Assembly: GCF_030464365.1 (NCBI RefSeq)
Contig: NZ_VCYI01000006.1
Location: 62,001 to 126,000, forward strand
Direction: 5' to 3'
Length of the DNA stretch: 64,000 nt
Origin: Methanoculleus methanifontis
GTDB taxonomy: Archaea; Halobacteriota; Methanomicrobia; Methanomicrobiales; Methanoculleaceae
Part shown: piece by piece, positions 19,537 to 23,207 of the stretch
Numbering within the stretch: the stretch's first letter is position 1
How the letters are laid out: each line of letters starts with the position of its first letter
Notes under the pieces: model-generated
What the model was told of the DNA's origin: nothing
What the model saw: only the letters and a program-made list of their open reading frames with translations
The model's database searches: none
Translations under genes and position numbers: made by a program

Positions 19537-20526
19537 GTGGGTCTGGTGCCGGGGGTATCTTCATTGCCCTGCAGGCCCCCGTGTCGTTCAGTGGTACAGC
19601 AGGTGATCACCAGGAAAGGATACCTGAAGACCGACGATGCGTTCGGGGACTGGCTCGCGGGCGTCCTCGCCGGCCGGCTAGCCGGGTGGCACGGGGAGAT
19701 CCGGGTCTACCGGATAGAGCCCGCTTCCCACGTTGTCTGCCGCTATGAGTTCGGGACAGGACTCTCTGTGGTCGGCAAATTCTTCGGTGCGCCGACGGGT
19801 GCGAAGACCCGCTACAACACGGATGCGGCGATGAAAAACGAGTTTCACAGGCTCCGACAGGCGTCCGGCTGGATCCGCGTCCCCCGTGCCATCGCCACGA
19901 ACAGCCGGTTTCAATCCGTTCTCGTGACCGAGTACGTCCCCGGCCCGACCGTGCGGGAACTCCTCGATGCAGGGGTATCCCTGTACGACCCCCTGACCGG
20001 CATCGCGCACCTGCTCCGCCGGCTCCACGACGGCACACGAACTTCCTGCAAACGGGAGCGCGATTTCGCTTACTTCCACGCGATCCTCGACCAGAACAAC
20101 CTCCCGGGATCCCGGAGGAAGCGGTTCGACCGCCTGCTCGGGGCGTGGTGGCACAGCACACGGCTCGGCCGGGAGGGGTGCATGGTTCACGGCGATGCCA
20201 CGCTCGGCAATTATCTCTTCAACGGCGAGATCTGCGCGATCGACTTCGAGGGAGCCCGGAACCACGTCCACCCGGTCCGTGACCTCGGCATCCTGGCCGC
20301 AGAACTCAAGGCATCGGGCGGGAGCACTACGACTGCCGAAGACTACATCGGCCATCTGCTCTGGCATTACAGTGGTAGTGAGGAGGAGTTCCGGCATCAT
20401 ACTGCCGTCCTCCCCTTCTTCATGGCGCTCGGCTACCTCAGGATCGCGCGGCTGCCCTGGCGGGCGGCGGAACGCGACTGGCTTTTAGCGGAGGCGGAGG
20501 CGTGTCTCGGCGCGATCCATCGATAG
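19537..20526 (+). CDS. Aminoglycoside-phosphotransferase-fold kinase
   Basis: A protein of up to 329 residues with the APH/choline-kinase fold. The catalytic loop is MVHGDATLGNYLF and the metal-binding motif is AIDFEGA; TEYVPGPTVRELL is the hinge. It should phosphorylate a small molecule, but the substrate is unknown. The start is uncertain: GTG 19537 is the longest, GTG 19591 is possible, and neither has a clear SD. The HAD hydrolase gene downstream overlaps it by 25 nt, which suggests coupled translation and a shared pathway. Nothing links it to antibiotic resistance. Confidence 0.8.
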   Translation: MGLVPGVSSLPCRPPCRSVVQQVITRKGYLKTDDAFGDWLAGVLAGRLAGWHGEIRVYRIEPASHVVCRYEFGTGLSVVGKFFGAPTGAKTRYNTDAAMKNEFHRLRQASGWIRVPRAIATNSRFQSVLVTEYVPGPTVRELLDAGVSLYDPLTGIAHLLRRLHDGTRTSCKRERDFAYFHAILDQNNLPGSRRKRFDRLLGAWWHSTRLGREGCMVHGDATLGNYLFNGEICAIDFEGARNHVHPVRDLGILAAELKASGGSTTTAEDYIGHLLWHYSGSEEEFRHHTAVLPFFMALGYLRIARLPWRAAERDWLLAEAEACLGAIHR

Positions 20527-21164
20527 CGGGGGTTCTCTTCGACTGCTACGGGACGCTCATCGACGTCCTGACCGACGAGCACGATATCGAGACCTACCGG
20601 TGCCTCTCCCGGTGGCTCATCTACCAGGGGGTCCGGATCGCTCCCGGAGACCTGCGGGATCTCTACACCTGCCGGGTCAGGGAGGGTCTCGAACAGACCG
20701 GGGAACCCCACCCGGAGGTACGGGTCGAGGAAGTTTTTGCCGGCATCTGCGCCGAACACGCCGTCTGGGAGATCGATACGGCCCGGCTCGGCGCCGAGTC
20801 GGCCCGGGCGTTCCGGGCCGCGTCGCTCAGGCGCCTCGGCGTCATCAGAAAAAGCAAAAAACTGCTCGACCTCTTCAGCGCGACGAAGACGGGGGTCGTC
20901 TCGAACGGTCAGCGGGTCTTCTCGGAGCAGGAGATGCGGATGCTCGGCCTCTACGGCCGTCTCGGCTTCGTCATCTTCTCTTCAGACCTCGGCTACCAGA
21001 AACCGGATGCCCGGATATACGCAGCGGCGCTCGGGCGGATGCGGCTTCCCACCCCCGAAGTCCTGTTCATCGGGGACAACGCCGAGAATGACATCGATGC
21101 TCCCCGGAAGATCGGGATGCAGGCGTTGCATGTCGAGGAGGCATGGAGGCGCTACGGCGTCTGA
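20502..21164 (+). CDS. HAD superfamily hydrolase
   Basis: A 220-residue haloacid-dehalogenase-type phosphatase. Motif I is VLFDCYGTLID, motif II VVSNGQ, motif III Lys in YQKPDARIY, and motif IV FIGDNAENDI. A helical cap lies between motifs I and II. The probable activity is removal of phosphate from a small metabolite. The GTG start at 20502 lies inside the preceding kinase gene, so the two are translationally coupled. Confidence 0.87.
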   Translation: MSRRDPSIAGVLFDCYGTLIDVLTDEHDIETYRCLSRWLIYQGVRIAPGDLRDLYTCRVREGLEQTGEPHPEVRVEEVFAGICAEHAVWEIDTARLGAESARAFRAASLRRLGVIRKSKKLLDLFSATKTGVVSNGQRVFSEQEMRMLGLYGRLGFVIFSSDLGYQKPDARIYAAALGRMRLPTPEVLFIGDNAENDIDAPRKIGMQALHVEEAWRRYGV

Positions 21165-21250
21165 TACAGCGGGCCCGGTGGGTATATGGTACCCGGTCTA
21201 CCATTCCTCTTCACGCAAGATCATGGAGATGTTTCACAGTCGGAAGGGTG

Positions 21251-21844
21251 ATGCCGGTTTTTGCGGATAACACCCCGTCCGGTGACTGGATCGGGGTCGA
21301 CCTGAACACCACCGATCACCTTGCCGTCGTGGCCCACCCGGCGAGCGGGGGCGTGGTGACGCTCGGTGAGTTCCCCGATGACGCCGAACACCGGGAGCAG
21401 CGCGGCAGCGCCCTGAAGGGCAAAAGGTACAGGACTGAACGGGATCGCGAGAGCCGTATCCGGGGCGACCAGAACAGAAGAGTCGCAAGCGAGATCGTAA
21501 GGATGGCCCGGCAACTTCAGTGCGGCATCAAACTGGAAGACCTCGCCGGCGCAGGTTTTACCGGGCGGGAGAAGCCGGGCACCCCCCTCCCGTTCTCCCG
21601 GCGCGACGGGTCGTTTTACCACCTCCAGAACCTCATCGAGGGACGGGCTCACGACGCCGGGGTTCCGGTTGCCCTCGTGGATCCGGCGCTCACGTCCCGG
21701 CGCTGCAGCCGGTGCGGAAAGCGGGGCGCTCGCAAGGGCAAACGATTCCTCTGCCCACACTGCCGGTATACTGGTCATGCCGATACAAACGCGGCATTCA
21801 ACATAGCAGCGGCACGGGTTTCGCAGGGGTCCCGCGAGCGGTAG
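21251..21844 (+). CDS. Miniature TnpB-like RuvC protein
   Basis: A 197-residue protein that corresponds only to the C-terminal nuclease half of IS200/IS605 TnpB (usually about 400 residues). RuvC-I is WIGVDLNTTDHLAVV (D17). A basic bridge-helix-like segment follows, then RuvC-II IKLEDLAG (E96). A zinc knuckle C152-x2-C155...C168-x2-C171 comes next, and RuvC-III is GHADTNAAFNIAAA (D178). The N-terminal recognition and wedge domains are absent. All catalytic acids remain, so it may be an active nuclease or a domesticated derivative. No TnpA gene or obvious element ends flank it. ATG 21251 follows GGAAGGGTG; an open upstream extension to 21143 overlaps the HAD gene. Confidence 0.78.
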   Translation: MPVFADNTPSGDWIGVDLNTTDHLAVVAHPASGGVVTLGEFPDDAEHREQRGSALKGKRYRTERDRESRIRGDQNRRVASEIVRMARQLQCGIKLEDLAGAGFTGREKPGTPLPFSRRDGSFYHLQNLIEGRAHDAGVPVALVDPALTSRRCSRCGKRGARKGKRFLCPHCRYTGHADTNAAFNIAAARVSQGSRER

Positions 21845-21854
21845 CGAACCGCTA

Positions 21855-22679
21855 TCACCCCATCTGCGCCCGGATGTGCTGCACCGTCTCGGGATACCGC
21901 TTCTCGAGCCGGTTCTTCTTGAGATTCTCCCTCACGATCCACCGAATATCCTGATCGTCGAGGGTCGCAAGTTGCCGCAGGTACTCAAAACCAGGCGCGG
22001 GAAGGGCGGCGATGACTACGCTGAGCGTGTGGCCAAGCGACTTTCGGAGTGCACGGAAGGCCTCGGACCGCCGCTCTTCTGCGGTGTAGATCCGGATCAG
22101 GATCTTCCTGTGGAACCGGAGCGCCGCCGCTGCAAGATCGGGCTCATCCAGAAGCTCCGGTTCGGCAATCCCCGCGACCGCGGCCCGCATGGCAAGCCAG
22201 GAACCCCCCTCCACCCAGCCTTCCAGCTCCGGAACCGTCGTACCGCGCTGCCGGGAGAGGAGGTCCTGAAGCCCCGTCGCCACCGCTTCCCTGATCCGCC
22301 ACCGCGGATCGGCGGAGGCCTCCCCGAGGTGCTTGAGCGCCGTCTCGACGCATGCCGGCGAAACCGACCCGATCACCCCGATCCCCCTGACGCCGCAGAT
22401 CCCGAGGACCTCATGCGGATCGCCTGTTGGAGCATCTTCCGGCGAGACAAAGGCAAGCTCGACGCAGAGGTCCCACAGCAGGTGCAGGTCGTGGGGATCA
22501 GCAACGGCAAACTCCTGCACGGTTTCGGCAAACGCCGCCGCAAGTTCCAGGTTTGCCCGGGGTCCGGGAAGGCGGCTCTCCGCGACAAGGTAGGCAAGCA
22601 GATCCCCGGCATCGCCGCTCGAGAAAAAACCCGTGAGCAGCCGGGCAACCTCCTTGATATGGGTCTCTTTGCGGGTCAT
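21855..22679 (-). CDS. HEAT-repeat-like helical protein
   Basis: A 274-residue, nearly all-helical protein with repeat pairs reminiscent of HEAT/armadillo units: EASADPRWRIREAVATGL, then GWVEGGSWLAMRAAVAGI, and LATLDDQDIRWIVRENL near the end. Such scaffolds bind proteins. The small GTPase gene is 42 nt upstream on the same strand, so the two may form an operon and interact. The function is not known. Confidence 0.75.
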   Translation of the reverse strand: MTRKETHIKEVARLLTGFFSSGDAGDLLAYLVAESRLPGPRANLELAAAFAETVQEFAVADPHDLHLLWDLCVELAFVSPEDAPTGDPHEVLGICGVRGIGVIGSVSPACVETALKHLGEASADPRWRIREAVATGLQDLLSRQRGTTVPELEGWVEGGSWLAMRAAVAGIAEPELLDEPDLAAAALRFHRKILIRIYTAEERRSEAFRALRKSLGHTLSVVIAALPAPGFEYLRQLATLDDQDIRWIVRENLKKNRLEKRYPETVQHIRAQMG

Positions 22680-22721
22680 TGTCTGTAGAGAAGAACGACT
22701 TCGAGGCAGTAAAAATGATCG

Positions 22722-23207
22722 CTACCGCGCGGTTAGGGTTGCGACAAAGGCGTCAAGAGCCGCATGGACGTTCTCACCGTTCCGCGCTGAGATCGGATGT
22801 ACCATCTCCCCCGGGAGATCCCGGCTGACGGCCTGGGGCACCGCACCGGGACTGTCGCACTTGTTCGCCATGAACACGAGCGGCACCTTGAGGGCTTTCA
22901 ACTGATCGTAGAGGTGCCTCGTCATCGCGTCCACTCCCGTAGTGGCGTCCACGACGATGATCGCCCCGTCCATCCCCCGCGAGAGGATCTGCCGGACAAA
23001 CTCGAACCGCTCCTGTCCCGGTGTCCCGAAGAGGAAGACGGCCTTGTCTCTTACCGTCAATCTGCCGAAATCAAATGCAACGGTCGTGTGCCCCTCTTCC
23101 GAGGACGCCTCGATATGACGGCTGCGGGGGTCGAGCGCCTGGATGAAGCTGGACTTGCCCGCATTGAAGGAACCGAAAACGACAATCTTGAGCCTGCCTT
23201 CTGCCAT
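22722..23207 (-). CDS. Small Ras-like GTPase (COG2229 type)
   Basis: A 161-residue GTPase. The P-loop is GSFNAGKS (about 12-19), switch II is LFGTPGQERF in place of the usual DTAGQ, and the base-specificity motif is MANKCD. The G-T-P-G-Q form is typical of the COG2229 group found in bacteria and archaea. It probably acts as a molecular switch; its regulators are unknown. Met 23207 is used because the N-terminal tail from 23387 is non-coding in appearance. HEAT-like protein 21855-22679 follows. Confidence 0.88.
   Translation of the reverse strand: MAEGRLKIVVFGSFNAGKSSFIQALDPRSRHIEASSEEGHTTVAFDFGRLTVRDKAVFLFGTPGQERFEFVRQILSRGMDGAIIVVDATTGVDAMTRHLYDQLKALKVPLVFMANKCDSPGAVPQAVSRDLPGEMVHPISARNGENVHAALDAFVATLTAR

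Follow-up and report, generated by a model that had tools for sequence, protein, structure and literature searches.

In ISDra2 TnpB, the target-adjacent motif is read by the WED and REC domains, and the scaffold of the guide RNA is held by WED together with helices alpha-1 and alpha-2 of the RuvC domain, alpha-1 acting through basic residues (PMC10097598). AmaTnpB adds a further activity, its own mRNA being processed in a RuvC-dependent manner (PMC10278001). The TldR proteins are descendants of TnpB with non-transposon roles, which have lost the nuclease and retained RNA guidance (PMC13418256); indeed, the TnpB domestications treated in these papers (Cas12, TldR) all retain guidance. The gene described here presents roughly the reverse of TldR, with an intact catalytic triad and no guide-binding lobe. 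It encodes a short TnpB-derived RuvC/zinc-ribbon protein of 198 amino acid residues and lies at 21248..21844 on the plus strand of a 64,000-nucleotide stretch of the Methanoculleus methanifontis genome (contig NZ_VCYI01000006.1; hereafter the window). Its recognition as a gene is supported by the open reading frame (ORF), family matches, conservation of the start and orthologues throughout the order Methanomicrobiales.

The frame is open over 21251-21844 (197 residues if counted from ATG 21251), and a first-pass annotation made from the sequence alone had read it as a half-size protein containing RuvC-I, -II and -III and a zinc knuckle, which both the ORF and the family matches bear out. The architecture is that of the TnpB RuvC-I/II/III plus zinc-ribbon core without the WED/REC half. 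The protein matches Pfam Cas12f1-like_TNB (PF07282) with 68 bits, above the cut-off of 26.3. The NCBIfam guided_TnpB model was matched below its cut-off (80.4 versus 100 bits) and over positions 194-388 of 389 only, that is, its C-terminal half, in agreement with the earlier statement that the N-terminal domains are missing. The score against the Cas12f2 model (83 bits) is likewise below the cut-off (450), and in PADLOC only the nuclease halves of Cas12 proteins are matched.

Counted from the GTG codon at 21248, the triad consists of Asp18 in RuvC-I (D18; motif GVDLNTT; 21299..21301), Glu97 in RuvC-II (E97; motif GIKLEDL; 21536..21538), which falls on the fourth predicted strand (residues 93-97), and Asp179 in RuvC-III (D179; motif HADTNAAFNIA; 21782..21784). 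The zinc ribbon CSRCG...CPHC (C153, C156, C169 and C172; 21704..21763) belongs to the TNB domain (PF07282); all of these features are on the plus strand. The three acidic residues are those which the first-pass annotation had listed as intact under the numbers D17, E96 and D178. The triad and the four cysteines are invariant in an alignment of 22 short forms (A1), as well as in a second alignment (A2), in which the window protein is set beside its relatives and full-length cores from viruses. Were the invariant columns (37 of 198) distributed at random, the chance of all seven sites being among them would be about 5e-6. By eye, the same residues are also intact in further translated copies, except for the broken L127, L129 and L136 and for L130, which is interrupted by unread bases. 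RuvC-I reads D-L-N in place of the usual D-hydrophobic-G of TnpB, a mark common to the full-length parent clade.

The structure was modeled with AlphaFold2 from alignment A2. The result is a RuvC fold with a mean predicted local distance difference test (pLDDT) value of 77 and a predicted template modeling (pTM) score of 0.75. The best solved matches are complexes of AsCas12f1 (template modeling score TMq about 0.70, E 1.9e-11), so that for the nuclease half Cas12f is the closest known fold and among the closest sequences. Cas12f, however, has REC/WED and uses guides from clustered regularly interspaced short palindromic repeats (CRISPR), whereas the short protein is half its length and has neither, and no CRISPR array lies within 20400-22900. 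The RuvC Holliday-junction resolvase is also guide-free and of RNase H-type fold, but Thermus RuvC is a weak match (TMq 0.36-0.43), the resolvase has no zinc ribbon, and the short protein descends by sequence from TnpB rather than RuvC. With TnpB it shares the triad and the zinc ribbon, but not WED/REC, a score above the guided_TnpB cut-off or mobile carriage. Three Methanoculleus orthologues have furthermore lost about 27-30 residues around RuvC helix alpha-1 while keeping the triad; from this and the missing WED/REC we surmise that canonical guide binding is gone in the short forms. The protein is neither a functional TnpB nor a product of simple decay, and would be more like a stand-alone RuvC-type nuclease of TnpB ancestry.

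A profile of the short forms was searched over 232 genomes of the order, and at E <= 1e-45 matched 60 of these. Five (G040, G044, G065, G102 and G191) hold full-length relatives and no short form; the other 55, a few broken copies included, have the short form and are distributed over families f1, f2, f4 and f5; the remaining TnpB matches in the order score far lower. The orthologues which the first-pass annotation proposed to look for therefore exist order-wide, with the triad conserved and at conserved loci. In the window genome the short form is the single copy of its subfamily, and the closest named protein record is from Methanoculleus sp. Afa-1 (91% protein identity). A maximum-likelihood tree of RuvC cores places the 52 short forms included in a single clade (Shimodaira-Hasegawa-like approximate likelihood ratio test, SH-aLRT, 98), which adjoins full-length GVDRNTTGH TnpBs and within which they cluster largely by family.

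These full-length neighbors belong to the compact archaeal and viral GVD[LR]NTTGH TnpBs (L023, L025, L185 and L218-L225), the RuvC cores of which are about 35-45% identical to those of the short forms and share the D-x-N RuvC-I motif, the zinc ribbon and RuvC-III. They differ in their length of about 335-350 residues, including an N-terminal WED/REC part of about 130-135, and in that they are multicopy in some genomes and in certain cases (L048, L050) have a Y1-TnpA-like gene beside them, whereas the short form is single copy and immobile. Since the early-branching short forms L016, L017 and L019 retain the parental C-terminal tail DRDxCxGSTDxP, it is the front half that was cut away. Full-length relatives are also borne on viral contigs. 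Among viral and metagenomic sequences, L175-L206 form a compact TnpB clade (about 335-350 residues) with D-[LR]-N-[TSA] replacing D-hydrophobic-G in RuvC-I; their N-terminal part is short, and the segment GLKSxISNQILRKYG is conserved in it. Short forms were not seen outside the order, the phylum matches inspected in other classes being full-length, sometimes multicopy TnpBs or fragments, and plasmids gave only distant ordinary TnpBs.

Selection was estimated on the RuvC core as the ratio of nonsynonymous to synonymous substitution rates (dN/dS) by the method of Nei and Gojobori. Values of 0.011 (f2 pair L020/L021), 0.015 (f5 pair L026/L100) and 0.045 (f5 pair L112/L115) were obtained, most remaining close f5 pairs being at or below about 0.15. 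For the window gene and its nearest relative, L007, the ratio is 0.26, near the 0.13-0.23 of neighboring genes; the check for purifying selection suggested in the first-pass annotation thus came out in its favor, as did its view that intact catalytic residues and zinc ligands speak against simple decay, given their family-wide invariance. The C-terminal tail changes several times faster than the core. The invariant triad and cysteines, the low dN/dS and the conserved promoters described below together argue for constraint on a protein with a nuclease center, which by these ratios is stronger in f2 and f5 than in Methanoculleus.

Neither a partner nor mobility is apparent. The parental N-terminal part (about 130-135 residues) occurs in six genomes of the order, in every case within full-length or broken full-length copies, and coexists with a short form in only 1 of the 55 genomes (G217). 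The short protein is therefore neither one half of a split TnpB nor dependent on a parental copy; a separate gene for an N-terminal half was found neither in the window genome nor elsewhere in the order, once the genomes that hold full-length or broken full-length copies are set aside. That one shared genome compares with about 1.4 expected by chance, so that avoidance of, or dependence on, the parental TnpB was discarded. Only 84 bp separate the stop codon of the upstream gene (21164) from the start, leaving no room for a TnpB remnant, and the in-frame upstream remnant by which the first-pass annotation would have been contradicted was looked for and is not there. Its statement that no tnpA or element ends occur nearby also holds: no direct or inverted repeats resembling element ends were seen around the gene (20400-22900), and the whole genome is devoid of Y1 TnpA. 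For the latter reason, none of the eight further TnpB-type genes of this genome (OrfB_IS605 model) seems capable of moving on its own with a Y1 transposase.

We lean, by slightly more than an even chance, towards the explanation that the short protein derives from a compact archaeal TnpB which was domesticated and immobilized, and which dropped the WED/REC lobe and kept the nuclease. The ancestor would have lost this lobe together with the transposon ends, and the shortened gene would have become an ordinary host gene under its own promoter. As judged from the comparison of genomes, it is inherited vertically at a stable locus, is under purifying selection and has lost mobility, as is characteristic of a domesticated transposon gene. 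The RuvC fold and zinc ribbon probably still bind nucleic acid and cut it by two-metal-ion chemistry at D18, E97 and D179. Because WED/REC are absent, the protein would be expected to serve some house-keeping or regulatory function guide-free, its substrate being either RNA or DNA that is single-stranded, branched or flapped. RNA and single-stranded or branched DNA are equally plausible here, since the RuvC domain of TnpB cuts RNA too, its own mRNA included. Of the possibilities raised in the first-pass annotation, a minimal RuvC nuclease is the one to be favored.

Several observations weigh against domestication as an active nuclease. Constraint in Methanoculleus is weaker, most dN/dS values lying at 0.26-0.6 and those of a few close pairs at 0.1-0.2, although codon bias in these GC-rich genes may lower the synonymous-rate estimates and so inflate these ratios. 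About half of the Methanoculleus genomes are without the gene at an otherwise intact HAD-channel/HEAT locus, which indicates that it is dispensable, and a few copies elsewhere have decayed (L029, L127, L129 and L136). In known TnpB RuvC domains, moreover, DNA cutting follows pairing of guide and target; the bare core might therefore be inactive alone.

A broader proposal, which we hold to be evenly balanced, is that this order exemplifies a second route of TnpB domestication, in which a guide-less RuvC/zinc-ribbon host nuclease, specific for structure or for RNA and in f5 perhaps controlling its own leader mRNA, was kept as the mirror of TldR. If true, a lineage minus the guide-binding lobe would demonstrate that the RuvC/TNB half is able to function, and to be selected, by itself, and would offer a natural test of a guide-free TnpB nuclease core (cutting of single-stranded DNA, junctions or RNA) as well as a scaffold of roughly 200 residues of interest to enzyme engineers. 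It would also correct the naming of a conserved methanogen gene likely misannotated as "transposase" or "TnpB." No published description of a RuvC-only TnpB family was found in a search that covered few subscription journals, and novelty is thus provisional.

The alternatives differ in what the core is thought to do. It might be an RNA-processing or autoregulatory RNase, which cuts RNA and perhaps its own mRNA leader, much as AmaTnpB is known to process its own mRNA in a manner that depends on RuvC (PMC10278001). The observations that bear on this come from family f5, where a conserved 5′ leader lies some 35-140 nt ahead of the short gene at loci such as L104, L109, L112 and L115. It contains AGGAGG about 80 nt and TGTACAGCGGTTGAA about 35 nt before the start. 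With one mismatch allowed, TGTACAGCGGTTGAA occurs once per genome in the six genomes tested, always upstream of the short gene; the exact joint pattern of the leader elements was present in two of the six. With a conserved leader and an element confined to that site, the f5 gene is likely to be regulated in cis, and cleavage of the leader by the short protein itself is possible. But the leader was not found in Methanoculleus, the window included, where the TATA/start region differs from the promoter and leader of f5; no conserved fold was seen in it by RNAalifold, for which the shuffled controls were weak; and it may be bound by some other regulator. An RNase of this type is, on balance, unlikely. 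A leader peptide or upstream ORF in the f5 5′ region was dropped as a candidate, the frames, starts and stops being inconsistent.

That TnpB-derived regulators exist (TldR; PMC13418256), and that the window genome contains eight other TnpB-type genes with which such a protein could interfere, are in keeping with a non-catalytic regulator which binds DNA or RNA and uses the triad for metal binding or structure only. TldRs, however, exhibit the opposite pattern of triad loss and guide retention, the invariant triad favors catalysis, and co-occurrence with parental TnpB is at the chance level given above; we regard this role as quite improbable.

Very doubtful, too, is a minimal effector that is still RNA-guided, with a guide made elsewhere and held by the basic RuvC helices alone or in a dimer. 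The core is strongly basic in most families, and Cas12f and TnpB are nearest in solved fold and sequence. Cas12f acts as a dimer. Part of the guide scaffold is bound by the RuvC domain itself in ISDra2 TnpB (PMC10097598). Against this, the short forms lack WED/REC, the region around the guide-binding helix is reduced in Methanoculleus, and 54 of the 55 genomes are without a parental full-length TnpB to provide a guide. An Rfam search for a local guide RNA gave no match of note, and RNAalifold of the 3′ flanks and leaders revealed no strong conserved fold, although with shuffled controls near zero energy it had little power. The guide RNA which the first-pass annotation thought possible downstream of 21845 is consequently unsupported. 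Slow decay of a truncated relic, which the same annotation had allowed for, is highly improbable and for the family already refuted, for although the losses, the decayed copies elsewhere and the weaker constraint in Methanoculleus would suit it, the triad is invariant order-wide among orthologues, dN/dS is like that of neighboring genes, promoter and locus are conserved, and there is no upstream remnant.

The start codon is probably GTG 21248 rather than ATG 21251, because the nearest orthologue, L007, carries GTG at this position and no ATG at 21251. It is directly preceded by a Shine-Dalgarno-like GGAAGG (21242..21247, plus strand), which is similar in orthologues. An alternative in-frame ORF from ATG 21143 would give 233 residues; this extension is not conserved, since in L007 the same frame is closed immediately before the GTG. 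A probable promoter of its own, conserved in 10 Methanoculleus orthologues, consists of the TATA box GGGTATATGG (21180..21189, plus strand) followed by a conserved CACCAGTCT-type start region.

Upstream lies a HAD-family hydrolase (20502..21164, plus strand; PF00702), syntenic in Methanoculleus and a second genus, g5, and downstream a gene labeled HEAT, though without a Pfam match (21855..22679, minus strand), which is conserved in relatives. Gene order in Methanoculleus and the second genus of the same family is polyprenyl synthase, APH, HAD, short gene, channel-like gene, HEAT, GTPase. In f5 a DUF2070 gene precedes the short gene and the same channel-like gene follows it in many genomes; in f2 and f4 a gate-type permease is upstream of some copies, and one f2 genome has APH-HAD 6-7 kb upstream. 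The sharing of neighbors between families suggests a single old locus, rearranged later. An operon partner was sought in the neighborhood and none was found, because the neighbors (HAD/HEAT, DUF2070, gate-type permease, histidine kinase) differ from family to family.

Some minor observations remain. The f5 genome G172 has two short forms (L106 and L120) at different loci, which belong to two separate f5 sub-lineages; this hints at old duplication or transfer. The decayed L029 (genome G015) carries an in-frame deletion of ~56 residues which removes RuvC-II and fuses RuvC-I to the zinc ribbon, and represents either a natural allele that has lost catalysis or a collapse in the assembly. The channel-like gene lies between the short gene and HEAT in many relatives (L036:5615-6376, L047, L053) and is missing from the window and L038; it accompanies the short gene in two families and was lost in the lineage of the window. 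Its N-terminus is pore-like with two transmembrane segments in f5, and is reduced in Methanoculleus, where the gene has no Pfam match.
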